Source: a virus. From it: DNA of 22,633 nucleotides. Below, piece by piece: positions 2,731-22,633 of this stretch (within the stretch, counting starts at the first letter, position 1; each line of letters opens with the position of its first letter). The stretch spans positions 1 through 22,633 of IMG/VR virus record IMGVR_UViG_3300035703_002457. One strand, written 5' to 3'. The notes under the pieces were generated by a model, which made no database searches, was not told the origin of the DNA, and saw nothing but the letters and a program-made list of their open reading frames with translations. Both the position numbers and the translations under genes were made by a program.

Positions 2731-2796
2731 TTATTTCCTAACTTAATTTAATATTTAGCATCTATATGCTTAGATATTAGAACATTAAAAAAAATA
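2731..2796. other. Short intergenic gap with weak hairpin
   Basis: This 66-nt gap separates the 141-aa gene from the tail-fibre gene. AGCAT (2757-2761) and ATGCT (2766-2770) can pair around a CTAT loop, with outer AATAT/ATATT arms across a small internal loop. It is AT-rich and lacks a convincing T-tract, so it may be only a weak transcript feature. The Shine-Dalgarno of the downstream gene lies at its left end. Confidence 0.25.
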
Positions 2797-3222
2797 TCAG
2801 CTAGAACTTTCAACAGATTCTTCTTTTTTGTTTTTATTTTTCTTTCCGTATTTCTCTGCAATGCCTGAAATATAACCATTAAATAATTGTTTTGTCATTC
2901 TGTATACGTACCCGCTAAAAAATCCGGCAAAAATACCCCAAATAATTCTATTTGCAGGCGAAGTATTAAACATTTCAGGATAAGGATAAGATTGAACTAG
3001 CCATGTAAAAATTATTCCCGTTCCAGGGGCACCGGATGGTAATAAAATATCTTTCCATAATTTATTTTGCCACTTCCCCTCTTTGAGCATAGCGGGTAAA
3101 AATTTAGAGAAAAATAATTCTAAAACTTTTCGTTGAAGTTCAACTAAAATATAAATTACTACGCAAAGAACTAAAAAAGCAGGACCAAATAAACTAGTTA
3201 CTGAAGATATAAATTCATCCAT
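2797..3222 (-). CDS. Small membrane protein, holin-like candidate
   Basis: This 141-aa protein has a strongly hydrophobic N-terminal segment (about residues 12-30, FGPAFLVLCVVIYILVEL). A second weaker hydrophobic stretch lies around residues 88-105 (RIIWGIFAGFFSGYVYRM). The C-terminal tail is highly charged (KKNKNKKEESVESSS). One or two membrane spans followed by a basic tail is the usual outline of phage holins, and its place among tail and host-recognition genes fits. No family signature is recognised and no endolysin is visible beside it, so holin is a hypothesis. An inner-membrane or virion-associated protein is equally possible. ATG at 3222 is supported by AAGG six bases upstream (AACAAGGTAAATT-ATG). 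A TATAAT-like box sits 24 nt before the start. Confidence 0.6.
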   Translation of the reverse strand: MDEFISSVTSLFGPAFLVLCVVIYILVELQRKVLELFFSKFLPAMLKEGKWQNKLWKDILLPSGAPGTGIIFTWLVQSYPYPEMFNTSPANRIIWGIFAGFFSGYVYRMTKQLFNGYISGIAEKYGKKNKNKKEESVESSS

Positions 3223-6200: not shown

Positions 6201-6841
6201 TTTACATACCCGTCAGAATTATCTGTAATAATTAAATTTTTAAATAATGTCTTTTTTACATCAGTTCCTAATATTAAATTTTGGTCTCCAGAACCAGAAT
6301 CTCCATTTATAGAAAAATCGGTAGTAATAGCTGAAATATTAAAAATAGAATTTCCGCCAGAAGTCTCTCCAATAATATAAACTCCTGGTCCTTCTCCAAT
6401 TAAAGAAATGCCATTTGGAATTGTAATTGTACTAGAAACTCTATAATATCCAGGTAATAATAATATTATTCCACCATTTGCAAGTCTAGCATCAGTAACC
6501 GCAGCGTTTATCGCATCTTTTAAAGTGGGAGTCTCTACAGAATTAACATTATATTTTCCTGTAGCATAAAATCCAGAGTATCCATCCAAGCTACCAATAG
6601 AGATAAATCCAGTCCCATTACCATTAACATAATTATATATACTCTCTATTGCCGATTGTACAGTTGAACCGTTTAACACGGCAGGATTCATGTCAATTGC
6701 ACTTGCCTCGTGCCGCCAGTCAGTTCCACCAGTATGTGCGATAAAATCCTGATAGTGAACTACAGGACGACCACCTTCTCTTAATCTACTTGATCCTACA
6801 AATTTTGTCATGCCATTATGCCAAATCATTACCTTAGCCAA
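3275..6841 (-). CDS. Tailspike / tail fibre with parallel beta-helix (pectate-lyase-like) domain
   Basis: This 1188-aa protein shows three zones. Residues 1-105 form an N-terminal segment with HEASAIDMNPAVLNGSTVQS, a pattern seen in fibre attachment regions. Residues of about 106-1020 begin with a pectate-lyase-3-like first turn (DAINAAVTDARLANGGIILL, GYYRVSSTITIPNG) and continue with many short Asn-rich repeats (IENNFF, ISNNKI, FNNNYL) typical of a right-handed beta-helix. A C-terminal beta-sandwich-like domain spans about 1030-1188. Such proteins bind and often depolymerise surface polysaccharide, but no catalytic residues can be assigned from sequence alone. The frame opens with TTG at 6841. 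An ATG four codons later (6829-6827) is the alternative start, and neither has a strong Shine-Dalgarno. A 344-nt leader region precedes it, which suggests a separately controlled transcript. Confidence 0.85.
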   Translation of the reverse strand: MAKVMIWHNGMTKFVGSSRLREGGRPVVHYQDFIAHTGGTDWRHEASAIDMNPAVLNGSTVQSAIESIYNYVNGNGTGFISIGSLDGYSGFYATGKYNVNSVETPTLKDAINAAVTDARLANGGIILLLPGYYRVSSTITIPNGISLIGEGPGVYIIGETSGGNSIFNISAITTDFSINGDSGSGDQNLILGTDVKKTLFKNLIITDNSDGYVNSGNTTLSTGAMVLVDRGSNVEFEKVTFIGRLNDGPVLNRQKTLTAIFTLPAGLARGTSININKCYFDGLRNSVFFRPQLGRADYLSIKNSKIKFYGEESTSYSTNDCGVLSSLANIEIENNFFLGAGTYSETLLGILSDVVSNPTDCSVKVVGNSGYTIGNISRLCDPAYTSPIRATMHGNAFSAGKDGNKPWTIVLGMDEGDILGTDGLDLILSTYDAASEIPTKIILNPGDYKITASSGTFTSLKLEGNPIGKRYPRIRIETSGATTNNLNHKYIILGNSLKNIYFSSRGEFHSIHVSSAFTSNSDSRAEVIEVDNCIFKDINLYVDTTGSDSSTNVLGSYDADATRMQAIISKCRFYQTGLFDRNWSLFLPEIDIIKLSNSYFHGTGYALLFGDTFATGTNNTNFTIDGCVFDASGITINNLPYVGNPYYVNISSLTTKLNIKNSSFICSLNGESVANIFSGITTANYFIRIRSSDVNIESCYFNTPSDTYIDSLISYPIVGLFLQWINSINVVNNVFNSGGLPIQVKINDTGSSSTANQNYCNISNNKISLIDDNYITILDFDVDMDATDSIYRAITIESNQFLSTSDSASGGLYAQHTVVTSTNYDVGGSVQVYAQGADISFNNNYLSLGSKPFTSTPFTNHAGIILNTYDTDGKTSFINFNNNAVDVNVQNIAPGTGSYYSSVSLKSNYINANGNRINANNSGGLAATGTGFKGCLALDCRARSSAGDSIVSNNIFDRTSSAGALTTLYRGYVLVASTTDVRGQIIDNSFVSPYISGTTTTLVEDNTSSANNWIVARNKNQTQTIKIFGGYGQLGLKSTGSTYYSVAGLVNGVTTFNSDFVFRNSLSATNVVLNYRDTGDDLTALWTIPLKTVIPEGASIMEVSVGVDVSANPTTTSIATLSLINSGASVSDTSSPLTTSGDTLTVTAGVNDYIVQGSDPAYIEITLQIDSSTSIAATITDIEITYMF

Positions 6842-6949
6842 GGCTTTTGTTTCTTTTAATTATATTTTAATTTTAACTTAGACTTTAATTAGTCATGCCA
6901 CTCTCGCCTACCCAAATATATAAACTCATTTCTAATCTATAATTTTGTT

Positions 6950-7048
6950 TAAAGAATAATTATCTAAAGTTCCTTCCAAGATCGCCTGGACAGTCTGCAG
7001 CCTAATCTGCTCAGTCTAAATTAGCTCTTGGTTAAAAATTATTCTTTA
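6950..7048 (-). ncRNA. Candidate structured RNA element closed by a 12-bp stem
   Basis: TAAAGAATAATT (6950-6961) pairs perfectly with AATTATTCTTTA (7037-7048). Inside, CCAAGA (6976-6981) pairs with TCTTGG (7026-7031). Further in, an AGC-CTAAT/ATTAGCT stem with one bulged base can form, as can a CTGCAG palindrome. The nested arms give one continuous fold of about 99 nt in the leader of the tailspike gene. The core is less AT-rich than its surroundings. It is not a recognisable tRNA or a riboswitch class I can name. The strand is chosen because both flanking genes read leftward. Confidence 0.4.
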
Positions 7049-7085
7049 TTATACGCGCGTAACACACACGCACACGCGATATATA
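7049..7085. repeat. Alternating purine-pyrimidine tract (CG/CA/TA steps)
   Basis: From TATACGCGCGTA through ACACACACGCACACGCG to ATATATA the bases alternate purine and pyrimidine with only two breaks (7061/7062 and 7078/7079). Such CG- and CA-rich alternation is the classical sequence requirement for Z-DNA. It contrasts with the roughly 30% G+C surroundings. Confidence 0.6.
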
Positions 7086-7175
7086 AGATCTATATATAAT
7101 ATATATATTAAGATCTAGATCTAAGATCTATATATAAGATCTGATCTAGATCATGATCTTACGAAGTAAGATCAT
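7085..7175. repeat. Dense GATC/AGATCT cluster with 15-bp direct repeat and terminal hairpin
   Basis: Nine GATC sites lie at 7087, 7112, 7118, 7125, 7138, 7143, 7149, 7155 and 7170, five of them inside AGATCT palindromes. AAGATCTATATATAA occurs twice (7085-7099 and 7123-7137). At the right end ATGATCTTAC (7153-7162) and GTAAGATCAT (7166-7175) form a perfect 10-bp inverted repeat with a 3-nt loop, just after the stop of the kinase-like gene. That hairpin lacks a T-tract, so it is not a standard terminator. It may block or mark the transcript end. Confidence 0.7.
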
Positions 7176-7185
7176 ATGAGAAATT

Positions 7186-8265
7186 TCACCCAAACTCAAA
7201 AAGTCCAGGATCAGAAATTACAATATCCTTATTTTTTCTTTGCATGAGATTTGATTTGTGCAAATCTCTAAAAGAGATATTATATTTATTTTTTAATATT
7301 TTTAATAATTTAATTAAAGACTTTGCTTCAGGATAACTTTCTAGAACTCCCATTTTCAAAGGTGTATCCAAAGATTCATAATTTTTAGGAAATAACCCAG
7401 TATCTAAATTCCAAAAAAATGAATAGAACTCTTGACTGCAATCTTGAGCGTATTCATTGATTAATATTGTATTTTCAACTTTTTGATATTTTAATATAAT
7501 TTTAATTATTTCACTGATAGCTTCAGTAAGAATTGGTAACTTATTTTTAAAATCACCATACTGTTTAGGAAATTTATAATTATATAATAATTCTGATATC
7601 TTATTTAATAAGATTAAAAAATTTTCTTTTTTAAACAAAAATTCTTTATAAACATCTTTGTTAGATAACAACATTGATCTAACTAAAGATTTTAAAAATT
7701 GATCATCTGCTTTGATTTTTTTAATTAAATTAATATATGATTGACCTTCTGTTTGATTTTTCTGTTCATAATCGGAATCATATTGAAAAATGCTTTTTAA
7801 AATATCTGTAGAAAGAGGTTCTAATTCTTCAACAATTGCAACATGAGGAAGTATAGTTGGTTGCTTAAATCCTCTTTCTTTAATAGATAAAGATTTAAAT
7901 TTTTTAAAAATTAAAGAATTATCTGCATATATAATTTTATAAATATTTAATATGTGTTTTTGTAAATCGCTTGGTAAAGAATTTTTTATTGCATTTAGCT
8001 TGTCTAAAGCTTCAATATCTTCTTTGTTGTACGTAACTTTTGCTACCGCTGGAATTCCATTATAAATTACTTTATATACAGTAGAAAATGTACCTTTCCC
8101 TAGGTGAGAAATTCCTTTTTCATCTCCCGAACCAATATCTACTGGAATCGCTCCCAAAGATAATAAATAAGCCTCTTCAAAAGAAAGAGCTTGCTCTTTC
8201 TCCATCTGCTCTTTTAATCTAGCTTCAAATTCATCAGCTAACTTTAATATGAACTGATATTTCAT
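7186..8265 (-). CDS. Protein-kinase-like protein
   Basis: This 359-aa protein carries recognisable kinase signatures. The glycine-rich loop is LGKGTFSTVYKV (55-66). An AVAK lysine sits at about 76 in the place of VAIK. The catalytic loop FRDLHKSNLM (332-341) matches the HRDLKxxN pattern, with Asp334 and Asn339. SDPG (351-354) stands in for the metal-binding DFG. By family knowledge these residues transfer phosphate from ATP to protein or another acceptor. It is unusual in ending only seven residues after Asp352, leaving no room for a normal activation segment and later C-lobe helices. About 200 mainly helical residues lie between the N-lobe and the catalytic loop. It starts at an ATGA overlap with the upstream structural gene and has no Shine-Dalgarno, so translation is probably coupled. 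Target and virion packaging are unknown. Confidence 0.75.
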   Translation of the reverse strand: MKYQFILKLADEFEARLKEQMEKEQALSFEEAYLLSLGAIPVDIGSGDEKGISHLGKGTFSTVYKVIYNGIPAVAKVTYNKEDIEALDKLNAIKNSLPSDLQKHILNIYKIIYADNSLIFKKFKSLSIKERGFKQPTILPHVAIVEELEPLSTDILKSIFQYDSDYEQKNQTEGQSYINLIKKIKADDQFLKSLVRSMLLSNKDVYKEFLFKKENFLILLNKISELLYNYKFPKQYGDFKNKLPILTEAISEIIKIILKYQKVENTILINEYAQDCSQEFYSFFWNLDTGLFPKNYESLDTPLKMGVLESYPEAKSLIKLLKILKNKYNISFRDLHKSNLMQRKNKDIVISDPGLFEFG

Positions 8266-9863
8266 AATATTATTGTATGAATATGCCCATCAGCTCCGGG
8301 TTGAACGATTCCATTTACAATTTGATGCGTATGATGCTGTGAAGTATTCGATCCGCCAATACTTGTTAATTGATTAACTTGAGAAATATTGGTAACTTTC
8401 TCACTTACGGTAACTGTATGTGAATGTGGTAAAAATATTCCACCCATGTTAATACTAGTAGTTAATTTACTAGGCATCATAGAACTATCAGAAAACACTT
8501 TAATTTTATAAGCAGAATCAGTTTTGCGAATTCTTTGTGCTCTGAATTTTTGAGCACCACTTATTCCATAAAATAAAACGTTTCTATTTACAGAAAGTAT
8601 TTCATAACGTGCATCTTCTAAAGTTTTATTGTAAGTATCGTAAAGAATAATTACATCACGATCTTTAATTACCGGATAAACTAAAGTCCAACCATTTGGT
8701 GTAAATGTATTTTCTAGACCAGCTTCCTGTTGTGCAATATCCTCATCTGTAGGATCTATTCTAACTAAAATTCTTCCATCGCTTCTTCTGGGATTAAAGA
8801 ATTGCTCATATCCAACAGTAAATCCTGTTCCAAAACAAGTTGGACAACGATCATCTGGCTGCTCAACTTCTGCCATAAAGCACCTGCAACGAGTCCCTGT
8901 ATGGTATCTTCTTAGCAAGACAGCTTCTCTTCCAGTTTGCTCTAGTAATAATTCCTCTCTTCTGTTATTTTCGTCACTAACAGAAACTCCCCTAACTTGT
9001 CTTCCTACTCCATCATATCCATCTGCACAGTAAATTTCTCCGCCAAAATAACTTCCAATGCATTTTCCAGTTAAATAATCTTTAGGATTAGTTCTTCTCC
9101 ATCCTACTAAATCATACTTTGGAAAATCAGATTCATTAGCTTCTGTGTTTTCTAAATTAGAATAAACAATATCTTGACTGTATTTGTAGCCATCTGCTTG
9201 AGTAGATGCAAAATCAGGATAAGCATAATTTATAGTTTCCATAAAAGATTTGGTATTCTTCTCTTCAAATCCTTTAAAAAACTTTACAAATGGATCCCAT
9301 TGCTCATATCCATCATAACCATCAACATCATGAGCACGAGCTGTGGTTTTTAAAATTCCACGAGTTAGTCCGGTAAGAGCACTATTTGGAATATCTTTAT
9401 TTGTATAGCTTAATAGTTCTATTCCAACTTGCACAATTCCATAATTAGGAAATAAATTAATATCTTCTACATACATAGAAGTATCAGCCTCTGTCATCGC
9501 CGATAATAATAAAGATTCTGGATAAATTTTTGCTACGCCTAAATCTGGAAGACCTGATAAAGAAACTACCGCAGGATCAAATTGAGTTGCCCTAACTGCA
9601 AAATGATAACTGTCACCTGGAGTGAAATCCAATAATTCAATAGATGTTTTATTATCTATGACTAAATATTTTGGACCTTCTGCAAAAACATCCTCTTTAA
9701 CACTAGAATAATAAATATTATATCCTAATTGATAATTATAAGGACTAGGATAAGCCCTAGTCCAATTTAAAATAATGGCTTGACCATCCGAACTGCAAGA
9801 TACTTTTTGCAGCCCAGTGATTGTTACTGGTAAATACGTAGGTACAGGAGGTTCACATGCCAT
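8262..9863 (-). CDS. Virion structural protein with Fn3-like domain, Cys4 zinc motif and His-rich C-terminus
   Basis: This 533-aa protein has three visible parts. Residues of about 12-105 look like a fibronectin type III fold (AIILNWTRA, YNIYYSS, TPGDSYHFAVRAT). Residues 326-343 hold CRC and CPTC, with CPTCFGTGF resembling a DnaJ-type zinc knuckle, so four cysteines probably bind one zinc. The last 60 residues contain HSHTV, HHTHQ and HIHTI, like the metal-binding HxH clusters of trimeric tail-fibre tips. DGY recurs four times. These features suggest a tail, baseplate or neck protein whose fold needs metal, though no precise homologue is recognised. ATG at 9863 has no Shine-Dalgarno, and TATGAT lies directly in front of it. 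The gene overlaps the kinase-like gene by 4 nt. Confidence 0.75.
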   Translation of the reverse strand: MACEPPVPTYLPVTITGLQKVSCSSDGQAIILNWTRAYPSPYNYQLGYNIYYSSVKEDVFAEGPKYLVIDNKTSIELLDFTPGDSYHFAVRATQFDPAVVSLSGLPDLGVAKIYPESLLLSAMTEADTSMYVEDINLFPNYGIVQVGIELLSYTNKDIPNSALTGLTRGILKTTARAHDVDGYDGYEQWDPFVKFFKGFEEKNTKSFMETINYAYPDFASTQADGYKYSQDIVYSNLENTEANESDFPKYDLVGWRRTNPKDYLTGKCIGSYFGGEIYCADGYDGVGRQVRGVSVSDENNRREELLLEQTGREAVLLRRYHTGTRCRCFMAEVEQPDDRCPTCFGTGFTVGYEQFFNPRRSDGRILVRIDPTDEDIAQQEAGLENTFTPNGWTLVYPVIKDRDVIILYDTYNKTLEDARYEILSVNRNVLFYGISGAQKFRAQRIRKTDSAYKIKVFSDSSMMPSKLTTSINMGGIFLPHSHTVTVSEKVTNISQVNQLTSIGGSNTSQHHTHQIVNGIVQPGADGHIHTIIL

Positions 9864-9893: not shown

Positions 9894-10694
9894 CTACCAA
9901 GGTCTATTTTTTTTAATTTCTTCAAGATGTTTCATTAAAGCATCAATCCTTGCTCTGCTTTCTGGATCTATTGGTAGTGGCTTTTTTAATTTTCCATAGG
10001 ATTTAGCTCTCATCCGAGCATCTTCCTCTCTATATGCCCTGAGTCTTTCTAGAGCTTCAGGGTCTCCTTGTTCTATTAATTGTAATTCTTTTAATATGTT
10101 CCCAAAGCCTTCTGCATATGACATGGGATAGTTTGAAGGCTCTTGTTCTATTGATTTTGGCTTTTCGGAAGGAAATAAGCTTAATTGTTTTGCTGCAATT
10201 TTATAAATATTTAATCTATCCTTAACAGAGGAGGTAGATAAAAGTGCATCTTTCTTATCTTCTTTTTCTTCTTCGGGAACATCATGATGTTCCAAAACTT
10301 TATCTATATATTTTTTAGCTGCTTTTGGACCATCTTCCTCTGTAATAAATTTTGTTTGATTTTTAAATCCTTCTTGCTCATAAGGATTATCTAAATAAGT
10401 TTTTGCTGTAGAACCTTGAGTTGGACCATCTGCAAAACATTGCTGCAATACATGTGTAATCTCGTGTACCATGTAATGATCAATTTCTTCCGGATGCTTT
10501 CTTAGCTTTTCATTAAAATAAATAATTCCATGTTGAGTGCGAGCAGAAACTTCCAATGGGGCAAAACACATTGGCATATGATCAATTAAATCTAAAGATT
10601 TTTTTTCTTTTTTAAAAATTTCTTTAATTGTATCGCTTGATTTAATTTTTTCTTTAATTTTATCAATTATTTTAAGATCTTCTTTTACACTCAT
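9894..10694 (-). CDS. HExxH zinc metallopeptidase
   Basis: This 266-aa protein carries the zincin motif VHEITH (His77, Glu78, His81), a zinc-binding and catalytic site. It is followed by NPYEQEGF (103-110), whose Glu106 or Glu108 is a plausible third ligand. That arrangement is familiar from phage and bacterial HELTH-type peptidases. The N-terminus (1-35) and the region after 130 are charged and probably helical, and the C-terminus is strongly basic and acidic without a signal peptide. It could process virion proteins, be packaged and injected, or act on host protein, and the sequence does not decide. The start overlaps the stop of the GIY-YIG gene (ATGA). A weak AGG Shine-Dalgarno lies seven bases upstream, inside that gene. 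Confidence 0.75.
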   Translation of the reverse strand: MSVKEDLKIIDKIKEKIKSSDTIKEIFKKEKKSLDLIDHMPMCFAPLEVSARTQHGIIYFNEKLRKHPEEIDHYMVHEITHVLQQCFADGPTQGSTAKTYLDNPYEQEGFKNQTKFITEEDGPKAAKKYIDKVLEHHDVPEEEKEDKKDALLSTSSVKDRLNIYKIAAKQLSLFPSEKPKSIEQEPSNYPMSYAEGFGNILKELQLIEQGDPEALERLRAYREEDARMRAKSYGKLKKPLPIDPESRARIDALMKHLEEIKKNRPW

Positions 10695-11677
10695 GTTTTG
10701 CCTGAAATTATATTTTTAATATCTTTAGTTGTCTTGTTATTATCTTTAAGTATCCCATCAAATATGTATTTTGATAAATTAAGCTTATCGCAAAGTTCTT
10801 TTATAGTTTTAACAGAAGGTGCTTCTTGCAAAATAGATTCTATATTTGCTTTGGAATTTTTAACTTTAAATTCCAGTTTAACTCTTTTCTTTAAATAAGA
10901 AATGTGAGAAGTGGTGCATTTTAATATTCTTGCTAGATCTGCTCCGGAATAACATTGCTTGGCAAGCTCTTGAACTTCTTCATAGTCGTATTTACTAAAA
11001 TGCATGTCCTTTCTTGTTTTAATAGATGCCTCAATGCCTTTCTGTCTTTGTTCGGCGGTCATTAATTTAAAGTTAGAAATAAAATTATCAGAGGAAGCCA
11101 TTTTTTTAGAATGTTCTGATATAATTTTTTTAATTTCTTCTGAATGTTTTTTTCCATGAAATGGATTAGGATTATTTTCGTAATGTTTTTTAATTTTTTC
11201 TGACATCTTTAGCTTAGATTCTTCAGTGTGCTGCTTGCCTTTAAATGGATTTGGATTGTTTTGATAGTATTCTTTCATTTTTGCAGATTGCAAAGCTAAT
11301 CGTTCAGGTGTAAGGCTTTCTTTTGTTATTTTAGATAATTTTTCTCTTACTTCGGGCGTGAGATTATTTATCTTGCCGCCTGAAGTACTATTGTATCCGT
11401 ATAACCTATTGTTTGATTGGTAGATTTCTATCCATTTAATTTCACAAGCTTCTGCGTCTTCTACGCTAAAGCATTCTACCACTTCTAAAACTATGTGATG
11501 CCAATCTTCTTTTCCGTATTTTTGGATTGCTCGGTGAAAGTAACAAGAGTTTTTTGGATTGTTTTTACCGGATTCTATTACATGACGATTCCAGCGCCTT
11601 GTAATGTTTGTTTTAGTGATTCCAATATAGACTTTTCCAGTGGTTTTATTAATATGCGCGTAAACTTCATATCGCAT
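10691..11677 (-). CDS. GIY-YIG homing endonuclease with NUMOD3 repeats
   Basis: This 328-aa protein begins MRYEVYAHINKTTGKVYIGI. The YEVYAHI and VYIGITK strands are the GIY-YIG pair, followed by the catalytic-type Arg in RRWNRH and a Glu in DAEACEIKWIE. GYNSTSGG ends the nuclease domain. Two NUMOD3-like DNA-binding motifs follow (NPNPFKGKQHTEESKLKMSE and NPNPFHGKKHSEEIKK), then a helix-turn-helix-like segment (YSGADLARILKCTTSHISYL). The layout matches free-standing phage homing nucleases, which cut near their own insertion site and spread by repair. An upstream TTG would add 14 residues but overlaps the previous gene. ATG at 11677 with a strong GAAGGGG site is preferred. It lies 14 nt after the 301-aa structural gene and overlaps the metallopeptidase gene by 4 nt. 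Confidence 0.88.
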   Translation of the reverse strand: MRYEVYAHINKTTGKVYIGITKTNITRRWNRHVIESGKNNPKNSCYFHRAIQKYGKEDWHHIVLEVVECFSVEDAEACEIKWIEIYQSNNRLYGYNSTSGGKINNLTPEVREKLSKITKESLTPERLALQSAKMKEYYQNNPNPFKGKQHTEESKLKMSEKIKKHYENNPNPFHGKKHSEEIKKIISEHSKKMASSDNFISNFKLMTAEQRQKGIEASIKTRKDMHFSKYDYEEVQELAKQCYSGADLARILKCTTSHISYLKKRVKLEFKVKNSKANIESILQEAPSVKTIKELCDKLNLSKYIFDGILKDNNKTTKDIKNIISGKT

Positions 11678-11683
11678 GTCTTT

Positions 11684-11690
11684 CCCCTTC
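11684..11690 (-). promoter_or_regulatory. Shine-Dalgarno GAAGGGG deciding the GIY-YIG start
   Basis: GAAGGGG reads leftward with a 6-nt spacer to ATG at 11677. It is the strongest ribosome-binding site in the window and lies in the 14-nt gap after the 301-aa gene. It rules against the upstream TTG at 11719. Confidence 0.75.
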
Positions 11691-11691
11691 T

Positions 11692-12597
11692 TTAGTAGAT
11701 CTGTCTTGCTCTTAACCAACGCAAACGAGCGAATTGAGGAGCCCTCATTACGCTTCCTGTTAATGAACCGATTGCCTGCGGAGCGGGTTTCATCGTCGCC
11801 TTAGCCATCTTACACTTATCCATATAATTCGTCAGTTCCGTACTCCACTGCGTATTCAATAGTTCGCTAATCGTGGGAGGCGTTAAGCTCACTCCATTAT
11901 CGCTTAAACTATATTCTCTTCCACGTTCAATTAGAGCCTGGCTAGACAAGGCTAACAATGTCGCTCCTTGGACTAAAATATCATAAAATATAGTGATAAT
12001 TTCAGTATGATGAAATTCAAACATTGTAAAATGCGGAATTTGATTAAACATGCTTAAAGATTGAGCTAAAAATGTTACTAATTGATCCGTACTATAAATG
12101 TCACAGTCTACATAAATAGGATTATTAAACTGATCTACACCTGCAGATTTACCACTAGATTTTAATCTTGCTTTTAATCCTTTTAATAATTTATTAATAT
12201 TTAAGATTGCAGTTTGAGAATAATTAAATGGAACATCATCCCCTAATGCCCAATAACCATCACTGTTTGTTAATGGAGTTTGAGTGTAGAAAACATTAAA
12301 ATTAAATTCTTTAACAACAATTTCTCCGGATGGAATCTGACCTCTCCATAGATCTACCCAAACTCCTTGGCTGACTTGCAAGGCAGTGGTATAATCAAAT
12401 CCATATAAGCCGGTATTTACACGATACACGCCCATGCTAGTAGGACCGATTACTACGTTTCCACTGGGCTGAATAATTGTAATTTGAGGAGCTGTTGGTA
12501 AATCTACAGGATTTCCTGATAAATCATAAAATTGAGCACGGAGACTTACCCCTTCGGTAGGATGAATTATTTGAGAACGGGGTTTTAAAGTAGCCAT
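11692..12597 (-). CDS. Virion structural protein, N-terminal Ig-like segment
   Basis: This 301-aa protein is not recognised by name. Residues 1-105 read like a beta-sandwich: SLRAQFYDLSGNPVDLP, a GVYRVNTGLYGF turn, then WRGQIPSGEIVVKEFNFNVF. Residues of about 130-300 are more helical, with TDQLVTFLAQSLSMFNQIPH and repeated hydrophobic helices. There is no signal peptide or catalytic motif. Its place in a run of virion genes and a DGYWALGDD motif shared in style with its neighbours suggest a head-tail connection or tail accessory role, which is inference. ATG at 12597 lacks a Shine-Dalgarno. The upstream gap of 30 nt is nearly pure AT. The GIY-YIG gene was probably inserted just downstream. 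Confidence 0.65.
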   Translation of the reverse strand: MATLKPRSQIIHPTEGVSLRAQFYDLSGNPVDLPTAPQITIIQPSGNVVIGPTSMGVYRVNTGLYGFDYTTALQVSQGVWVDLWRGQIPSGEIVVKEFNFNVFYTQTPLTNSDGYWALGDDVPFNYSQTAILNINKLLKGLKARLKSSGKSAGVDQFNNPIYVDCDIYSTDQLVTFLAQSLSMFNQIPHFTMFEFHHTEIITIFYDILVQGATLLALSSQALIERGREYSLSDNGVSLTPPTISELLNTQWSTELTNYMDKCKMAKATMKPAPQAIGSLTGSVMRAPQFARLRWLRARQIY

Positions 12598-13615: not shown

Positions 13616-13935
13616 TTTTTCCTTATTTTAAGCCCTTTTGGCTTTGGTTGATAGTAGGGTTTTGTTATTCCTGGAACGTTAGAAGCTCCATTTAATTCGT
13701 AAACTAAAATTCTTCCATTATTATGCGTCGATGGATAAGGTCCAATAATTTTCAGCTTGCCTGCATGAACTAAGTTGTGATGTACAGCGCAAATTACACA
13801 AAGATTCCAAATGCTGTTGTCAGTTCTTAAATCATTTTGCTCTATTATATGATGGTAATGCAAAGCTGCAGAATCAGTTATATTACATTCTGATATTTCA
13901 CATTTTATTTTAGGTAATCCTTTGACATGTTTCAA
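13612..13935 (-). CDS. HNH endonuclease, TTG start
   Basis: This 107-aa protein has a compact HNH fold. CEISEC (residues 12-17) is the first zinc-knuckle pair. LHYHHIIE supplies the first catalytic histidine, NSIWNLCVIC the central Asn and the second cysteine pair, and HHNLVH the last histidine. HNH proteins of this size nick or cut DNA and serve in phages as packaging cofactors, homing nucleases or defence effectors. The start is TTG at 13935, supported by AAGGA four bases upstream and by a TTGA overlap with the desulfurase stop. The nearby ATG is out of frame. The C-terminal tail is basic (KPKGLKIRKK). No terminase genes adjoin it here. Confidence 0.85.
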   Translation of the reverse strand: MKHVKGLPKIKCEISECNITDSAALHYHHIIEQNDLRTDNSIWNLCVICAVHHNLVHAGKLKIIGPYPSTHNNGRILVYELNGASNVPGITKPYYQPKPKGLKIRKK

Positions 13936-15032
13936 GCTTTCCTTAAAACATCAACAACTTTCTTAGCTTCTTTTTTGCCATATTCTCCCCACTGAGAAAT
14001 TCTCATAAAATCATGAGGAGAAAAACCGCGATATTCTAATGGGTATACAAAGTTTTTAAGAGATTTGCTAACACCTGTAGCATGTGATCCGCAAGCAGAC
14101 CCTAGTCCACAATAAATATTATTATTATTTAATTTTAATAAATTAGTAATTGCATCTTTCTTATGAACAAAAGTAGTATTAGGAGAACGACAAGTATCCT
14201 CTGCTACCACGTAATAACCTAAATTTTTAAGCTCAGGTTCAATAGTAGATTGAAATTCTTGACAACGCTGGAAACGCTCTTTAAATGAAGCTAGTGCTTT
14301 TTCTAAAGCGAAGGCACTAGCCGCAACCATACAAGCATCTGGAGTGCCCGTTCGATCAGTGTAATAACGTGAGCCAGTCCCAAAAGGAATCCACCAGCTA
14401 GGATCTTTAAGATATAGAAAACCAACCCCATTCATACCTCCAAATTTATGGCAGGCGAAAGCACCTATATCTATGTCTAATTCTGTAACGTTTACGTGAA
14501 CTTTTCCTAAAGATTGACTTAAATCACAAAAAATTCTATCGCTTTTGTATTTATTTACATTAAAGACAGTTCCAAATTCGTTTTGCATGTGCATTAAAAT
14601 AGCACTGCCTTTTAATGGCAATCCCATGCTGTTAAATAATTTACCATTATTATTTTCAAAATAATCAAAATTATTTTTAGTTCTTAACAAATTTTTATAT
14701 TTATCTACTACATCTGAAACTGCGGTATGCTCATAAGGTCCTACCCGAACATAATCTTTCTCAGGAGTCTGCTTAAAAAGCATTTCTAAGCCCCATTCGC
14801 AAGCATGAGTGCAGCCATAAGTAAAAATAATCTGACTAGAAGATGTAGCACCAATTAACTGTGCAATCTTTCCTCTGGCTTCTTCAATTAAATTAGCGGC
14901 ACGTCTTCCAGGAGTAGTTAGGGAACTTGGATGACCATGACCTGAGACGGAGCTATTTAATTCTGTAAAATATTTTAATGTTTCTTTGCTGACCGGAATA
15001 TGTGCATTTGCATCTAAATATAGTTCTTTCAT
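13932..15032 (-). CDS. Cysteine desulfurase (NifS/IscS-like, class V aminotransferase)
   Basis: This 366-aa protein is close to full length for the family. It converts cysteine to alanine and carries the sulfur as a persulfide, using PLP. Expected residues are present: LDANA near the N-terminus, His102 in EHTAVSD, Asn151 in NEFGTV, Asp170 and Gln173 in CDLSQS, the Schiff-base Lys196 in CHKFGGMNGVGF, and Cys314 in the GSACGSHATG loop. The enzyme therefore looks intact. It sits among virion genes with no IscU, tRNA-thiolation or Dnd genes in the window, and is translationally coupled to an HNH nuclease. Sulfur may feed tRNA or DNA modification or Fe-S assembly. ATG at 15032 has no Shine-Dalgarno, and the 13-mer at 15039-15051 lies directly upstream. 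Confidence 0.88.
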   Translation of the reverse strand: MKELYLDANAHIPVSKETLKYFTELNSSVSGHGHPSSLTTPGRRAANLIEEARGKIAQLIGATSSSQIIFTYGCTHACEWGLEMLFKQTPEKDYVRVGPYEHTAVSDVVDKYKNLLRTKNNFDYFENNNGKLFNSMGLPLKGSAILMHMQNEFGTVFNVNKYKSDRIFCDLSQSLGKVHVNVTELDIDIGAFACHKFGGMNGVGFLYLKDPSWWIPFGTGSRYYTDRTGTPDACMVAASAFALEKALASFKERFQRCQEFQSTIEPELKNLGYYVVAEDTCRSPNTTFVHKKDAITNLLKLNNNNIYCGLGSACGSHATGVSKSLKNFVYPLEYRGFSPHDFMRISQWGEYGKKEAKKVVDVLRKA

Positions 15033-15431: not shown

Positions 15432-16352
15432 TTATAACCTTGGAGTTGTAGTGCCATCCCAAGGCAATGAAATATCACCAAAGGATATTCTTGTTTTATT
15501 GCCTTTAGTTTGAGTGCTACTTCTGATATTTAATTCCCACATCATCATGGAACTAACTCCTTTATATCCAATAGGAGACCCTAAGCTGCTATGTCTAATC
15601 AAAACTAAAGGAAGTCGGTCATCTTTGCCACTATATACATTTGATCCTGAAGGTAAACCGCTATTATACACTTGATAATAACTTGCAGGTATTTCTACAA
15701 AGGTAGCTGGAGAACCTAAAAAGGCTTTGCATTCTGGCTGATTAGAAGATGGAAAATAACTTGCTAAATAATTTTTACTAAAGCAATCATCAGCTCTACC
15801 AATAAAAAATGCATATCTTTCACCAGTAGCTGTATCATTTGAATCCGTTCCAACTAAAGGATCCATAACTATAGCAGTAGTAGGCTGTCCACCAAATCTG
15901 TAACATGCCATCCAAAAACCATAACCATCACCGGCAGATATGTTATCATCAGCCCCGCCCTGCAAATAATAAGTTCCCGAGGAGGCAAATAATTCATCTC
16001 CTCCTGAACTCGTGCCAAATAAATTTATCTCATCTGAAGCTGTTGGCATAGTATTGCCAGATGGCGAAGTATTAAATGTTGCAGACCTAGAATATTTAAT
16101 CCAAGCATGCCTATCTGATCCGGAACCTCTTTGTACACATAATTCAGAAACTCCTCCAGGAATAGATGCCCGAAACCAAGCTTGAGAATTATTATAACCA
16201 GAAGTAAAAGAGGCATTGCCAGCAGCATAAGATGATCCATCCGAAGATTCTTGAATGGTCCAGCCAGCACCCTCTAGCATTGTCATAAATTTAAACAATG
16301 CTTCGCCACCAGAGCCAGGAATTTGATTTGTAATCCAACTTGTAAATGCCAT
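15432..16352 (-). CDS. Tail/appendage protein, paralogue of the next gene (copy 2)
   Basis: This 306-aa protein begins MAFTSWITNQIPGSGGEALF and ends ISLPWDGTTTPRL. It shares both ends and many internal blocks (LEGAGWTIQ, YYLQGGAD, GYGFWMACY, VMDPLVGTDSNDT, GYKG, MMMWE) with the gene at 16363-17286. The N-terminal pattern W-TNQ-P-SGGEAL followed by GAGW and SSDG recurs in phage tail proteins as I recall them. No catalytic motif is evident. Composition rich in S, G, Y, W and N fits a beta-rich surface protein. ATG at 16352 has only a weak GAG upstream. It lies 10 nt after the paralogue's stop. Confidence 0.75.
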   Translation of the reverse strand: MAFTSWITNQIPGSGGEALFKFMTMLEGAGWTIQESSDGSSYAAGNASFTSGYNNSQAWFRASIPGGVSELCVQRGSGSDRHAWIKYSRSATFNTSPSGNTMPTASDEINLFGTSSGGDELFASSGTYYLQGGADDNISAGDGYGFWMACYRFGGQPTTAIVMDPLVGTDSNDTATGERYAFFIGRADDCFSKNYLASYFPSSNQPECKAFLGSPATFVEIPASYYQVYNSGLPSGSNVYSGKDDRLPLVLIRHSSLGSPIGYKGVSSMMMWELNIRSSTQTKGNKTRISFGDISLPWDGTTTPRL

Positions 16353-16362
16353 GATTTATCTC

Positions 16363-17286
16363 TTAAACGCTAGGTGTTGTAGTGCCATCCCAAGGTAAGG
16401 AAATATTTCCAAATACAATCCTTGTTTGACTTTCTTTTGTGTCCGCACAAGAACGAGTAATACCTTCCCACATCATTAATCTTCCCTGACCCTTGTATCC
16501 ATAAGGGTAACCATTATTATTGGGCTTGGCATAAATTATAGGTATTCTATCATCTGTGCCACTGTACGAGTTAGATCCTACCTCGTTAGGAAACATAGTA
16601 TTTTGACTGTTTCTATAATAATTTGCAGGAACAATAGTCCAAGTGCTTCCTAAAAATGATACGCAATTTGCATTTATATTGCTAACTGATGATACTGAAA
16701 AAGTATTGTTATCTTGAGCTGAAAGATAAAATAAATTCCGCTTTCCAGAGTCCGTATCATTTGAATCAGTCTGCAATAGTGGCTCCATAACAAAACCAGT
16801 ACGAATGTTTTGAGAAAAGCCATAGCATGCCATCCAGAAACCATAACCGTTTGCATTATCTGCTCCGCCTTGCATATAATAAGTTCCACCCGTATCAAAT
16901 AATGGACCGCCAGTACTATTTGAATAAAATAAATCAATCTGATCAGTTGCAGTAGGGGTAGTTGTAGCATCTCCACCAGTACTAAAACCCGAAGAAGGAG
17001 ATTGCTTTATATAAGCATAATATTCAGTGGAAGAACCTCTTTGAAAAACAAGTTCATTTCCAGCAGGAGAAGTTAATCGTATCCAAGCCGATGAATTATT
17101 GAATCCTCCAGCCCCAGACCCGCCAGTAGTAATACCATCTACACCTGCAGAATTATTTAAATATGTAGTGCCATCAGAATATCCATTTACGGTCCATCCT
17201 GCACCCTTTAACATCTCTTTTAAATTATAAAGAGATTCCCCGCCGCTTGCAGGAGTTTGATTCGTAATCCAACTTGTAAATGCCAT
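16363..17286 (-). CDS. Tail/appendage protein, paralogue of the previous gene (copy 1)
   Basis: This 307-aa protein is the first copy in the tandem pair. It begins MAFTSWITNQTPASGGESLY and ends ISLPWDGTTTPSV. Conserved blocks include MLKGAGWTVN, ELVFQRGSS, TPTATDQIDLF, YYMQGGAD, GYGFWMACYGF, MEPLLQTDSNDT and MMWEG. The middle (about residues 160-250) differs most from its partner, as expected if that part contacts the receptor. No enzyme motif is seen. AAGGA lies seven bases before ATG at 17286, the best translation signal of the pair. A 52-nt gap upstream contains a TTGATATATAATA segment that may be a promoter. Confidence 0.75.
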   Translation of the reverse strand: MAFTSWITNQTPASGGESLYNLKEMLKGAGWTVNGYSDGTTYLNNSAGVDGITTGGSGAGGFNNSSAWIRLTSPAGNELVFQRGSSTEYYAYIKQSPSSGFSTGGDATTTPTATDQIDLFYSNSTGGPLFDTGGTYYMQGGADNANGYGFWMACYGFSQNIRTGFVMEPLLQTDSNDTDSGKRNLFYLSAQDNNTFSVSSVSNINANCVSFLGSTWTIVPANYYRNSQNTMFPNEVGSNSYSGTDDRIPIIYAKPNNNGYPYGYKGQGRLMMWEGITRSCADTKESQTRIVFGNISLPWDGTTTPSV

Positions 17287-18518: not shown

Positions 18519-18531
18519 TAACTATATCAAT
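18519..18531 (-). promoter_or_regulatory. Second copy of 13-mer ATTGATATAGTTA
   Basis: Identical to the 13-mer at 15039-15051, it sits four bases from the ATG of the 210-aa gene and overlaps the stop of the 256-aa gene. Its TATAGT is a possible -10. See the desulfurase copy for the leaderless interpretation. Confidence 0.35.
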
Positions 18532-19297
18532 CTAATACCGTGTCTTTAATCGTAATCGTAATCGTCCTCTCTACCGTCTTCTCACCCTCTCTTCTAATAT
18601 TGTTGTTTCCAAATATCGCATTGACTATCGACTCTTGAGTAATACCACCATTACCATCTTTAACTACCACTTTCTCAGGCTCTCGCTTTACCATCTCCTT
18701 CAAAAAAGAACCTTTCTTAAGTAACTTCTCATCTTTCTTCAAAATTACCCCACTCAATTCTTCCGAAGACATCTTGGCAATATCATCCAAACTTAATCGA
18801 TATCGCAAATCCAAGATCTGTGATAAATATTCTATCTGAGGACGAAATACCTCTACATCAGATTCTTTAACGACCAATGCCTTGTTTAAATTATCCAATA
18901 AAACTCTGGCATAACTATCATGCCAGTCCGTATCTGCTCCATATTTGCTCTTAATGTCATTTAATGGAGCAATTAATCTTGCTAAAATTTCAATCTTTTT
19001 CTCATCATCTCGGTTTAAAAATTCTTCCGAACGATGATAATGCTGAAGTCCCGCCCGTGGATTTCTCTCCGTTTCAGAATTAAATTTGCGAGTATCAAAT
19101 GCTACCTTCTTAATTCCTACAGATTCCAATGCCGTGCGGTAAAATACCAATCTGGCAGAATTTTCTACCATCAAATCTTCGCGAGTGTCATTTACCTTGT
19201 ATTGTATGGATTCGGGTACAACGCGACTCTCAACGGAAAAATTAAAATCTTCCGCCAATTTTGTCAAAATATTAATCTTGCCTTTTAAATTCAACAT
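18527..19297 (-). CDS. Hypothetical phage protein near the capsid gene
   Basis: This 256-aa protein is not recognised. It is mostly charged and helical, with NILTKLAEDFNFSVESRV near the start, a long helical middle (EKKIEILARLIAPLNDIK, VFRPQIEYLSQILDL) and a lysine-rich region (ILKKDEKLLKKGSFLKEMVK). The end is beta-like (EKTVERTITITIKDTVLD). The N-terminal KLAEDF phrase resembles the KLADEF start of the kinase-like protein, possibly a shared sorting or scaffold-binding segment. It is the first minus-strand gene left of the inserted plus-strand module and may be capsid-associated. ATG at 19297 has only a weak GAG upstream, and a TATAGT lies 11 nt before it. Confidence 0.6.
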   Translation of the reverse strand: MLNLKGKINILTKLAEDFNFSVESRVVPESIQYKVNDTREDLMVENSARLVFYRTALESVGIKKVAFDTRKFNSETERNPRAGLQHYHRSEEFLNRDDEKKIEILARLIAPLNDIKSKYGADTDWHDSYARVLLDNLNKALVVKESDVEVFRPQIEYLSQILDLRYRLSLDDIAKMSSEELSGVILKKDEKLLKKGSFLKEMVKREPEKVVVKDGNGGITQESIVNAIFGNNNIRREGEKTVERTITITIKDTVLD

Positions 19298-19363
19298 CTC
19301 ACAATAATACTATATTATTAGCCAAATGTAAAACTAAATATTTGTGCATTAATTTAATTCCAC

Positions 19364-19391
19364 TTGACATCTTCAAGCCGCTTGCTATATT
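19364..19391 (+). promoter_or_regulatory. Consensus sigma70 promoter of the endonuclease-methyltransferase gene
   Basis: TTGACA (19364-19369) and TATATT (19386-19391) are separated by 16 nt, matching the bacterial consensus at 6/6 and 5/6. The predicted start near 19398 lies downstream of the long frame's first codon (TTG at 19342) and about 28 nt before GTG at 19426, so it also decides the translation start. It is the best promoter in the window and the only convincing one on the plus strand. Confidence 0.75.
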
Positions 19392-19425: not shown

Positions 19426-21534
19426 GTGAAAAAATTACCTCAAGAAACTATCCAAGAAGTCATTAGCCTCTATCAGTCCGGCATCCCTCCAAAAGAAATC
19501 GGAGAGAAATTAGGCATTTACAATAATTCCGTGACCCGCCTCCTTAGAAAACATGGCGTGGAACGTACCCAAGCCGCCCCCAGAGTCTCGCCCGAACATA
19601 CTCAATATATTATCCAAAAATATCAAGAAGGCGTTTCTTCGGAAATTCTTGCAAAAGAACTTAATATCAATAGTTCTACCGTTTTAAGAATCCTTAAAAG
19701 AAATAATATCGCCATTCGCAGCGATTCTGAATCCAAAAGAATATATCCACTTAACGAAAATTTCTTAGATCATATTGACTCCGAAGAAAAAGCTTATTTT
19801 CTAGGATTAATGTGGTCGGATGGTAATATTTCTAAAAAAGGAAATGACATCAGCATTCGCCTCCTTGCCAAAGATCAAGATATTTTAAAACAATTATCCG
19901 TTCTTTTCTATGGGCAAGATCGTGTCATCATCGCCAAAGATGGAAACAATAAAGAAATTGCTACATTTAGAATGTGCTCTCAGAAGTTAAAACAACGTCT
20001 GGGAGAACTCGGCTGCCATCCAAACAAAACTTTCACCAATAAATATCCAGTTGACTTAGACCCTTCTTTAGATAGACACTTTATTAGAGGCGTGATCGAT
20101 GGAGATGGATCGGTATTGGATTATGATAGTCCAATTATTATGATAGTTGGAACAGACGAATTTCTATGCAAAATAGCAGAAATTATTGAAAAAGAAGTAA
20201 ACTTTAAGCCTTATATTTTTAAAGCATCAAGACATAGAGAAAAAGATGTAAATATAAGCTGCCTTTCATATAAAGGTTTTAAAAAATTTAAACAAGTTTC
20301 TGATTGGATTTATGACGGCTGCACAATTAAACTAGAAAGAAAATATCAAAATTATCTTTCAGCCCGAGAAAAAGAATCAGATAAACTATTCTCTGTAGAA
20401 GAAGAAAAAGAAATAATTAAACAATTTATTTCAGAAAAATCATTTGGTGAAATATCCAGAGAAAATAATGAACATTATTCCAATATTAAAAAAATTACTC
20501 AAAGAAATGTTCCCTTCAACTATGGGTCTACAGATATTATCAATTATAAAGATCAACTCTTAACAAAAGAATATATTCTATCTTTAACTCTAGAAGAAAA
20601 ACAAAAAGTTAAAGAATATCTTTTTCACTATTTTCGAGGTTACGGATTCCCTTACCCAAAACATTCAAATTTTGAGCTGTATGATGACTGGCAAACCATC
20701 AAAAATTTTGATTCATCCTCTGTCATAGATGGAAATAAATTAAAAACTAAAAATTATACAGGTAATAAATTAACAAAACATTTCTTCGAAAATTTCTACC
20801 AAGTATCTTTCGATAAAAATAAATCCATGTTAGATGCTTTTAATAACGATGAGCTTCTAAATAAAGTTTTAGAAAATAGACTTGGAATCTCTTATAAAGA
20901 AACTTTTAATATGTCAGGCGCTATGCTTAGACAAGGATTAAGAAATTCTAGAGCAGCTACCCCTGCTAGTATGTTTATGGCTACCGTAGCTAAATATATT
21001 TATGATACTTACGCAGAGCCAGAAGGAATTGTATATGATTACTCCGCTGGATTCGGTCAGCGTTTAGTAGGAGCTATGGCTTCTAAAAATAATTTAAAAT
21101 ACCTTGGAGCAGAACCTTGGACAGAATCATTTGAAAATTTAAATTTCTTGTATAAATCTATCTTTCAACATCATCGTTGCAATTTGCATAATATCGGATC
21201 TGAAAACTTCTACCAAGAAGAATTTAATGAAAAAATTTGCCTTGCCTTTAGCTCTCCGCCATATTTTGATACGGAAATTTATTGTAATGAATCCACTCAA
21301 TGCAACTTAGGTTCTTATCAAGATTATTTGTCCTATTGGGATAAAACCTGTCAAAATATATTTAAAATGTTAAAATCAAATGGATGTTTTATTGTAAATA
21401 TTTCAGAAAAATATAAATATGATTTAGCTATGATTGCTTCAAAATATTTTAATCACGATCATGATTTGTACTTAAGCTATGGAACAGAAGGAAATTCTAA
21501 AAATGAACCTATAATTGTCATGCGAAAAAAATAA
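19426..21534 (+). CDS. HTH-LAGLIDADG homing endonuclease fused to DNA methyltransferase
   Basis: This 702-aa protein uses GTG at 19426 (GGAA about 10 nt upstream). Earlier codons in the frame precede the promoter. Two helix-turn-helix units (5-44 and 54-94) are followed by two LAGLIDADG helices: AYFLGLMWSDGNI (123-135) and RHFIRGVIDGDGSV (217-230), each with its catalytic acid. A third HTH-like segment lies near 323-361. The C-terminal 300 residues are a SAM-dependent DNA methyltransferase: MLRQGLRNSRAAT, motif I YDYSAGFGQR (537-546) and the catalytic SSPPY (609-613), the amino-methyltransferase signature for m6A or m4C. A single protein may cleave an unoccupied target and methylate sites. 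It is the only plus-strand gene, inserted between the capsid gene and the 256-aa gene. Base composition drops sharply after about 20110. Specificity is unknown. Confidence 0.85.
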   Translation: MKKLPQETIQEVISLYQSGIPPKEIGEKLGIYNNSVTRLLRKHGVERTQAAPRVSPEHTQYIIQKYQEGVSSEILAKELNINSSTVLRILKRNNIAIRSDSESKRIYPLNENFLDHIDSEEKAYFLGLMWSDGNISKKGNDISIRLLAKDQDILKQLSVLFYGQDRVIIAKDGNNKEIATFRMCSQKLKQRLGELGCHPNKTFTNKYPVDLDPSLDRHFIRGVIDGDGSVLDYDSPIIMIVGTDEFLCKIAEIIEKEVNFKPYIFKASRHREKDVNISCLSYKGFKKFKQVSDWIYDGCTIKLERKYQNYLSAREKESDKLFSVEEEKEIIKQFISEKSFGEISRENNEHYSNIKKITQRNVPFNYGSTDIINYKDQLLTKEYILSLTLEEKQKVKEYLFHYFRGYGFPYPKHSNFELYDDWQTIKNFDSSSVIDGNKLKTKNYTGNKLTKHFFENFYQVSFDKNKSMLDAFNNDELLNKVLENRLGISYKETFNMSGAMLRQGLRNSRAATPASMFMATVAKYIYDTYAEPEGIVYDYSAGFGQRLVGAMASKNNLKYLGAEPWTESFENLNFLYKSIFQHHRCNLHNIGSENFYQEEFNEKICLAFSSPPYFDTEIYCNESTQCNLGSYQDYLSYWDKTCQNIFKMLKSNGCFIVNISEKYKYDLAMIASKYFNHDHDLYLSYGTEGNSKNEPIIVMRKK

Positions 21535-21540
21535 AAGAGA

Positions 21541-21558
21541 CGCTGGATTTCTCCAGCG
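21541..21558 (-). terminator. Rho-independent terminator after the capsid gene
   Basis: On the minus strand CGCTGGA and TCCAGCG form a 7-bp G+C-rich stem closed by a GAAA (GNRA) tetraloop. TCTCTTTTATTTTTTT follows directly. It lies 70 nt beyond the capsid stop. The same hairpin follows the plus-strand methyltransferase gene by 6 nt but has only CCCCTTTA after it there, so it is weaker in that direction. Confidence 0.85.
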
Positions 21559-21571
21559 CCCCTTTACAGCT

Positions 21572-21627: not shown

Positions 21628-22358
21628 TCAGCCAGCTGCGACTGATTTGCGACCAGCAGCTACGCCACGGGGGACGAGGATGCCGATGCCGATTTCTTCT
21701 GAAACAACCCAGCCGAGGCTGAGGCGCTTGGGTTCATCGGCGGGGAGAACTTCGATGTCTTGACGGACTGGCATGACGCCGACGAACTCTGGATCTGCGC
21801 AAGCGTAAACTGTGCCGACTGGAACAATTTTGCTGACCATGATGTCTGCGCCCCAGATGCGAGCGTAGAGACCGGTTTGGAGGATTTCGCGTTGGGTGAC
21901 GGGATCGATTTCACCGCCGCCTGCGCCTTGACCGCCACCGGATGCCCATTTGAGGATATCGGTGAATTCTTTGATGTTCATGAAGTATTTGCTGGTTACG
22001 AGGTCCCATTTGTCAACTTCTGCTTTGAGTTCGAGAAGGTCGGCTTTGAGGAGACCGGTATCAGCAATGTCTTGGAGGGTGTTTTCGACGCTTGCAGCTG
22101 CATCAAGGGCTGCGAAGACGTTGGCGTCTTCTTGAGCCATGATTTCTTGACGAGCTTTTTGGACTGCACGGTCGATAACGTTGAAGCGACGGCGACGTAC
22201 TTCAGCGATACGGACGGTGGGGTTTGAAGCAAGTTCGAAAGTGGGAACGGTTACTGATTCACCGAAGATACGTGATTCGGGAGGTGAACCGTTGCTTGAA
22301 ACTACAACAGCGGTTACGTCGATATCACGGTGGTAAACGGGGAGTGCGCCTTGGGGTA
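21628..22358 (-). CDS. Major capsid protein, 3' exon
   Basis: About 242 C-terminal residues are readable, from near LPQGALPVYHRDIDVTAVV through PPESRIFGESVTVPTFELA, RRRFNVIDRAVQKARQEIM and AQEDANVFAALDAAASVEN to WVVSEEIGIGILVPRG. Sequences of this kind, with a VYHRDI segment, a RAVQ-KA-QE helix and a C-terminal DP-FVGVMPVRQD block, are typical of major capsid proteins in tailed phages. The internal ATG at 22140 is not a start, because the frame and the similarity continue upstream until 22358. There the sequence turns into group I intron, and the frame meets a stop at 22375-22377. The 5' exon lies outside the window. G+C is far above that of the neighbours (37 of 60 bases at 21721-21780), consistent with codon optimisation of an abundant protein. 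Confidence 0.85.
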
Positions 22359-22633
22359 CAAGGTAATTGTTAAATCACATTTTGTGATTGATAAGTCATT
22401 TCTGCTTATCTCTTCATATTCCTATGAAGTTCAGACTGTATCATCATCCTTTTGGGATGTTTGGCATTCTAGTCGTTGAGGAGCGGTAATTAATAGATTT
22501 TGTATTTCATACAATCTATAAAATACTCTTCGGTTAATCTGCTTAACTTTAAAGTATTTTCTTTATTAATGGATAGGTAGCAGTAAATTTTATCATTTCT
22601 TTTATATCTACAAATTTTAGATTTGATACCAAA
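22359..22633 (-). ncRNA. Group I self-splicing intron, 3' part
   Basis: Reading leftward, CTCAACGACTAGA (22480-22468) matches the conserved R element, CATCC/GGATG (22445-22459) forms P8, and GATACAGTCTGAAC (22442-22429) matches the S element. GACT and AGTC pair as P7. Three hairpins follow: CTTCATA-GGAA-TATGAAG (22412-22429, P9), GATAAG/CTTATC (22390-22410) and AATCACA/TGTGATT (22373-22389). The likely terminal guanosine is 22359, after which capsid coding resumes. The 5' splice site, internal guide and P1-P3 lie beyond the window. The order HEG-core-exon is the usual one for an intron with an ORF placed upstream of the 3' core. Confidence 0.85.
22490..22633 (-). CDS. Intron-encoded LAGLIDADG homing endonuclease, C-terminal fragment
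   Basis: The last 47 codons and the TAA stop are visible, beginning FGIKSKICRYKRNDKI and ending LTEEYFIDCMKYKIY. The phrase FG-KS-I-R-KRN, then a beta-strand, then L-L---YFI--MKYK matches the C-terminus of intron-borne LAGLIDADG enzymes as I know them, where the sequence usually ends near a PSMKYKL-like motif. The catalytic helices are upstream of the window. The stop lies ten bases before the intron's R element, so the ORF ends just short of the ribozyme core. The protein would spread the intron into intronless capsid alleles. Confidence 0.75.
   Translation of the reverse strand, partial: FGIKSKICRYKRNDKIYCYLSINKENTLKLSRLTEEYFIDCMKYKIY

Follow-up and report, generated by a model that had tools for sequence, protein, structure and literature searches.

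How does a free-standing homing gene avoid damage to its own genome when its neighbor is an essential gene with little room to change? Genes of this kind are located between conserved genes, one of which they cut in genomes that lack the element (PMC6083498), and two ways of sparing the carrier are known, namely inefficient cutting of the donor allele (PMC13096335) and an intron within the target, as with F-CphI (PMC6083498). The question is raised here by a 22.6-kb virus record from a large phage (positions 1 to 22,633, hereafter the window), in which an insert next to the major capsid protein gene encodes a nuclease and a methyltransferase (MTase) as one protein. The explanation that best accounts for the evidence overall, and that we favor somewhat more than not, is a free-standing homing gene with an MTase domain of its own, most likely modifying and sparing the DNA of its carrier.

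The fused gene (19426-21534, + strand) is open over 702 codons, from a GTG start at 19426 to a stop at 21534. A longer reading from a TTG at 19342 (730 aa) is unlikely because the best promoter-like match lies inside that extension and because L002, a homologous fusion from another phage, has an ATG at the position of the GTG. The promoter-like site itself (TTGACA-16-TATATT, 19364-19391, + strand) is a candidate from a consensus match (11/12, with TG preceding the second hexamer), and a terminator-like hairpin of 14 pairs followed by a T run (21534-21565, - strand) lies between the capsid gene and the fused gene. All domains of the protein are encoded on the + strand. Two N-terminal helix-turn-helix (HTH) units (residues 6-42 and 56-92; 19441-19701), recognized both by Pfam and as helices in a structural model, precede a LAGLIDADG nuclease domain of two repeats (residues 118-296; 19777-20313), for which Pfam, AlphaFold2, fold comparison, and conservation agree and whose predicted catalytic acids, judged from conservation, are D132 (19819-19821) and D227 (20104-20106). 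A third HTH-like segment (residues 324-360; 20395-20505) leads to the MTase half (residues 386-702; 20581-21531), delimited by homologue alignments, AlphaFold2, and conserved motifs, with motif I at 21037-21063 and the SSPPY motif at 21250-21264.

Pfam placed HTH_23 (two stretches) and LAGLIDADG_3 above its cut-off and N6_N4_Mtase below it (E 1.6e-4). Residues 16-313 matched the PHROG endonuclease family phrog_4645 (E 4e-57), and residues 386-701 aligned with a stand-alone Vibrio phage protein annotated as an N-4 cytosine-specific DNA methylase; a sequence search of the PDB with each half singly returned nothing significant. The AlphaFold2 model of the 702-aa protein (mean pLDDT 86.9) contains both LAGLIDADG repeats and the Rossmann domain in complete form, so that both halves fold well; its pTM of 0.56 makes it informative on each half and leaves their mutual arrangement unfixed. 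The nuclease half, with two LAGLIDADG helices that each carry a predicted catalytic acid in a two-repeat fold, groups by sequence and fold with the LAGLIDADG homing endonucleases, and its fold neighbors are PI-PfuI (Z 18.4) and I-Tsp061I (Z 16.8). The third HTH forms three helices in the model and is called as an HTH by Pfam in the homologous segment of L013, L015, and L016; L002 has lost it by deletion, and L014, L018, and L065 do not have it, which makes it a real but dispensable linker. The first-pass annotation, made from the sequence alone, had described a single polypeptide joining HTH units, a LAGLIDADG nuclease, and an MTase, with both acids, motif I, and SSPPY in place and a third HTH-like segment between the halves, and the searches and the model bear this description out. 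An intein was considered and rejected, given that the nuclease is N-terminal, that there is no N-extein, and that a complete MTase follows the nuclease.

The convergent neighbor of the fused gene is the 3' part of a major capsid protein gene (phrog_2522; 21628-22140, - strand), the probable homing locus. This position recurs: in 16 of the 16 fused contigs that were found without the capsid gene as bait and that have DNA on the capsid side (the window, L002, L004, L006, L007, L011, L013, L014, L016, L018, L065, L081, L092, L093, L095, and L182), the fused gene adjoins the major capsid gene; in a few, a further homing gene intervenes. L003, L015, and L100, being truncated by contig ends, were left out of the counts. 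Two capsid families are found at the fusions, a phrog_2522-like family (two branches, about 35% identical) and the T4 Gp23 family, to which the capsid proteins of L007 and L011 belong (Pfam E 8e-69 and 2e-79). The insert is antisense to the capsid gene in the window, L002-L004, L100, L102, and L105 and sense in the others. For the large outer clade of stand-alone MTases, the available stretches contained no capsid gene of the phrog_2522-like or T4 Gp23 families, the two that were tested.

A census that started from the capsid gene covered 80 loci, 57 of which have at least 3 kb of sequence behind the capsid stop. Eleven of these carry the fused gene, 3 carry separate nuclease and MTase genes, 2 carry a nuclease alone, 41 carry neither, and none carries an MTase without a nuclease. 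With near-duplicates removed, 51 loci remain (14 with both, 2 with nuclease only, 0 with MTase only, and 35 with neither), and nuclease and MTase are linked at a Fisher p of 9e-11, a value that ignores relatedness. Outside the census, L017 has a stand-alone MTase near the capsid gene and no LAGLIDADG gene detected nearby. At the empty sites of L115 and L133, the capsid stop is followed by about 110-130 bp and then directly by a homologue of window gene 18527-19297 (- strand), which in the window stands beyond the fused gene, on the far side of the insert. In the cleanest pair, L165 (fused) and L141 (empty), capsid DNA is 90.6% identical up to the stop, and homology resumes right behind the insert at 80% over 2.1 kb. 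The fused gene is therefore a sporadic mobile insert, a gene of its own between conserved genes that is present in some relatives and absent from others (L115, L133, and L141), and it behaves as the mobile gene that had been proposed from the window alone. Invasion of a resident MTase gene by a nuclease is not supported, as the empty relatives also have no MTase.

Several other genes of the window may be recorded here. A GIY-YIG homing endonuclease gene with NUMOD3 (10691-11719, - strand) lies within the structural gene cluster, as does a gene resembling class V aminotransferases of the cysteine desulfurase type (13932-15032, - strand), which is kept in L002. By eye, the N-terminus of the ORF at 7186-8265 (- strand; GKGTFSTVYKV...AVAKVTY) resembles a protein kinase, and the tandem paralogues of about 306 aa at 15432-16352 and 16363-17286 (- strand), both of which start with MAFTSWITNQ, are probably structural proteins.

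A model for the fused gene can be outlined as follows. A free-standing ('intronless') homing endonuclease gene would sit in the gap behind the major capsid gene, with the MTase as its C-terminal domain. During co-infection, the N-terminal HTH units would guide the LAGLIDADG half to the capsid locus of a phage free of the element; the LAGLIDADG half would cut this locus, and repair from the carrier would copy the fused gene into the cut phage. Because the gene lies next to its presumed target without interrupting it, insertion need not inactivate that target, and self-protection would be needed. The MTase half would most likely meet this need by SAM-dependent modification of the carrier's DNA, much as restriction-modification enzymes do. 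Carrying a DNA methyltransferase in one chain with the nuclease would then be a third self-sparing route, useful where the capsid target can hardly change. Protection of the carrier by methylation against its own nuclease is a plausible part of this model, to which we give slightly less than an even chance.

Protection by an intron is possible in the window, since its capsid gene carries the 3' part of a group I intron (22412-22546, - strand) that is cut by the contig end and scores below the Rfam gathering score (RF00028, 37.2 bits, E 3.6e-7); the homologues in L002 and L004 score above it. Capsid genes split by group I introns, several with LAGLIDADG ORFs, were observed beside the fused gene in the window (22360-22633), L002 (8380-11300, up to three inserts), L003 (2000-4200), and L004 (2600-4420). 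As a general protector ('collaborative homing'), the capsid intron was rejected, as uninterrupted capsid genes stand beside fusions in L014, L018, L065, L092, L095, L102, L105, L118, and L130. Nor is the MTase a strictly necessary protector in general: nuclease-only copies adjoin uninterrupted capsid genes in L116, L122, L131, and L138, which indicates that the MTase is not always needed for the survival of the carrier. L132 was discarded as a further nuclease-only copy, its nuclease being identical to that of L130 and its contig ending inside the nuclease.

Because of these nuclease-only copies, the main rival is a model in which the nuclease homes and the MTase is beneficial cargo, unrelated to the target, that benefits the phage, by broad modification of its DNA (e.g., as a defense against host restriction) or in some other way, and the phage keeps the homing gene for this reason. 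Antitoxin genes of large phages have been suggested to be such useful partners of homing genes (PMC12619734), and phages often carry related stand-alone MTases outside the capsid locus. Moreover, the MTase can outlive a broken nuclease, as it is intact in L118, where the nuclease is degenerate, and in L004, where a frameshift (real or an assembly error) lies in the nuclease half. Nevertheless, in the census the MTase occurs at the capsid site only together with a nuclease, and repeated fusion into one chain exceeds what cargo would need. We consider the cargo model possible, if rather unlikely.

The repetition of the fusion was traced in a scan of the MTase family that gave 528 relatives. The best 80 of these, which were examined, are mostly stand-alone proteins of about 350 aa, along with fusions of about 700 aa. 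LAGLIDADG_3 is joined to the MTase in the clade of the window, in L013-L016, L018, L065, and in others; LAGLIDADG_2 in L006 (two copies, with C-terminal zinc fingers), L081, and L182; a Vsr-like nuclease with zinc fingers and NUMOD3 in L007; and a TnsA-like domain in L011. The 540-aa proteins of L029-L048, counted as fusions in a first tree, were removed because they consist of a longer MTase only, with no nuclease match. The MTase copy of L007 may be impaired, as its motif IV reads TSIPY. Since fusion with related MTases thus recurs with four types of nuclease, the pairing looks selected. Across 16 LAGLIDADG_3 fusions, MTase distances follow nuclease distances (r 0.89), compared with r 0.37 against the capsid. 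The MTases of L102, L105, and L065 belong to the L013 clade and their nucleases are nearer to the clade of the window, a mismatch that suggests partner exchange or repeated fusion.

Neighboring genes at these sites were also recorded. L081 has two different LAGLIDADG_2-MTase fusions near each other behind the same capsid gene (1088-3058 and 3987-6026). In L102, an orphan 211-aa MTase fragment similar to the clade of the window (8546-9181) adjoins a fused gene whose MTase is of the other clade, as if one element had overwritten another, which would be a trace of serial invasion. In L011 (2588-4045) and L007 (1281-2993), a second gene with a Vsr/EDxHD-like segment and a C-terminal Mom-like domain (PF25680, E 3e-6 in L011; the L007 protein aligns over 245 residues, E 2e-26) separates the Gp23 capsid gene from the fused gene; it may encode a further homing nuclease that carries a different DNA-modification domain at this site.

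The model of a homing gene with its own MTase presupposes that the MTase acts on DNA. By its SAM-binding motif I and a (D/N/S)PPY motif IV in a class I fold, the C-terminal half resembles the N6-adenine / N4-cytosine DNA MTases, and PADLOC listed MTase_II for it and no type IIG model. Sequence profiles favor DNA as its probable substrate, and the best structural neighbors are the tRNA methyltransferases Trm11, TrmN, and Trm14 (Z 17.5-18.6). These neighbors, together with a weak NCBIfam match to TrmN, would fit an enzyme that acts on tRNA or rRNA, with the fusion serving translation or being cargo. Such an RNA substrate is improbable, in that the profile matches are to DNA N4/N6 methylases, Pfam reported no THUMP domain for this half, and the Vibrio phage relative sits among replication and nucleotide genes; in addition, many DNA N4 enzymes are circularly permuted and are therefore underrated by a sequential fold aligner.

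Whether both halves are maintained was assessed over 17 fusions. D132 is kept in all 17 and D227 in 16, the exception being L118 (D227 to K), and motif I (D538, G542, G544, and R546) and SSPPY (609-613) are kept in 17 of 17. The whole fusion is present at 69% identity in L002, a 301-kb contig, which shows that it is not an assembly artefact; L003, whose contig begins inside the gene, is 98% identical to the window gene. NG86 dN/dS between the window and L002 is 0.25 for the HTH units, 0.12 for LAGLIDADG, 0.30 for the linker, and 0.16 for the MTase, and in seven further full-length pairs, some with dS near saturation, it is 0.13-0.39 for LAGLIDADG and 0.07-0.27 for the MTase. Both halves are thus under purifying selection. 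In L118, a separate LAGLIDADG gene (6638-7654) directly precedes the fusion (7644-9575) in which the second acid is lost (DGKG) and the MTase motifs are intact. Individual copies such as L118 and L004 do appear to decay, as the alternative raised in the first-pass annotation would have it, namely the takeover of the N-terminus of an ordinary MTase by a dying homing gene, of which the nuclease half is a remnant, but with both acids kept in 16 of 17 fusions, LAGLIDADG dN/dS at 0.12-0.39, and an intact nuclease domain in the AlphaFold2 model, that account is very improbable. It is, in turn, highly probable that a mobile fusion occupies the capsid locus and that both of its halves are maintained.

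Among known systems, T4 SegF, T4 SegG, and cyanophage F-CphI are similar in being free-standing, optional genes between two conserved phage genes that encode a homing-family nuclease and are present or absent among close relatives. Unlike these, the window protein has an MTase domain in the same chain, and its nuclease is of the LAGLIDADG type and not of the GIY-YIG or Endo VII type. Type IIG enzymes combine a PD-(D/E)XK nuclease with an N6-adenine MTase that carries NPPY and with a target recognition domain. The window protein shares with them the union of nuclease and MTase in one chain, and to call it a homing analogue of type IIG, as had been suggested, is fair as an analogy. It is not a member of the class, however, having LAGLIDADG in place of PD-(D/E)XK and SSPPY in place of NPPY, with no target recognition domain listed for it; its gene is a sporadic insert at a phage capsid locus, and Vsr-like or TnsA-like nucleases occur in some other fusions at this site. 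The closest analogue located in the literature comes from Lactobacillales, where an Slx1-like GIY-YIG nuclease, of a superfamily shared with homing enzymes, is fused to a COG4123 class I MTase with NPPY and a restriction-modification-like role was proposed (PMC1564403). That fusion differs in being bacterial and chromosomal, in its nuclease, in its N-terminal MTase, and in showing no sign of homing. The intron endonuclease gp210 of phage PhiPA3 has been shown to act in competition between co-infecting phages (PMC11620839); it is similar in that a large phage gains from its homing nuclease an edge over a rival in the same cell, and it differs in being HNH and intron-encoded, with no modification domain described in the abstract. 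A search of the open-access literature turned up no report of a homing endonuclease fused to an MTase.

Selfish cutting is common to homing endonucleases and restriction enzymes. The fused gene of the window and the recurrence of such fusions with unrelated nucleases suggest an element that spreads itself together with a modification enzyme of its own. More tentatively, and with somewhat less confidence than we place in protection of the carrier by methylation, there may be a general class of homing elements with their own DNA modification domain, in which, at the capsid locus of large phages, unrelated nucleases repeatedly joined related MTases and, in adjacent genes, a Mom-like domain. These would be homing restriction-modification systems that mark the genome of their carrier and cut unmarked rivals at an essential, highly conserved gene. 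The presence of cutting and methylating domains in one protein, recurring at one locus, makes this link directly testable, and such proteins could yield long-site, methylation-sensitive nucleases.
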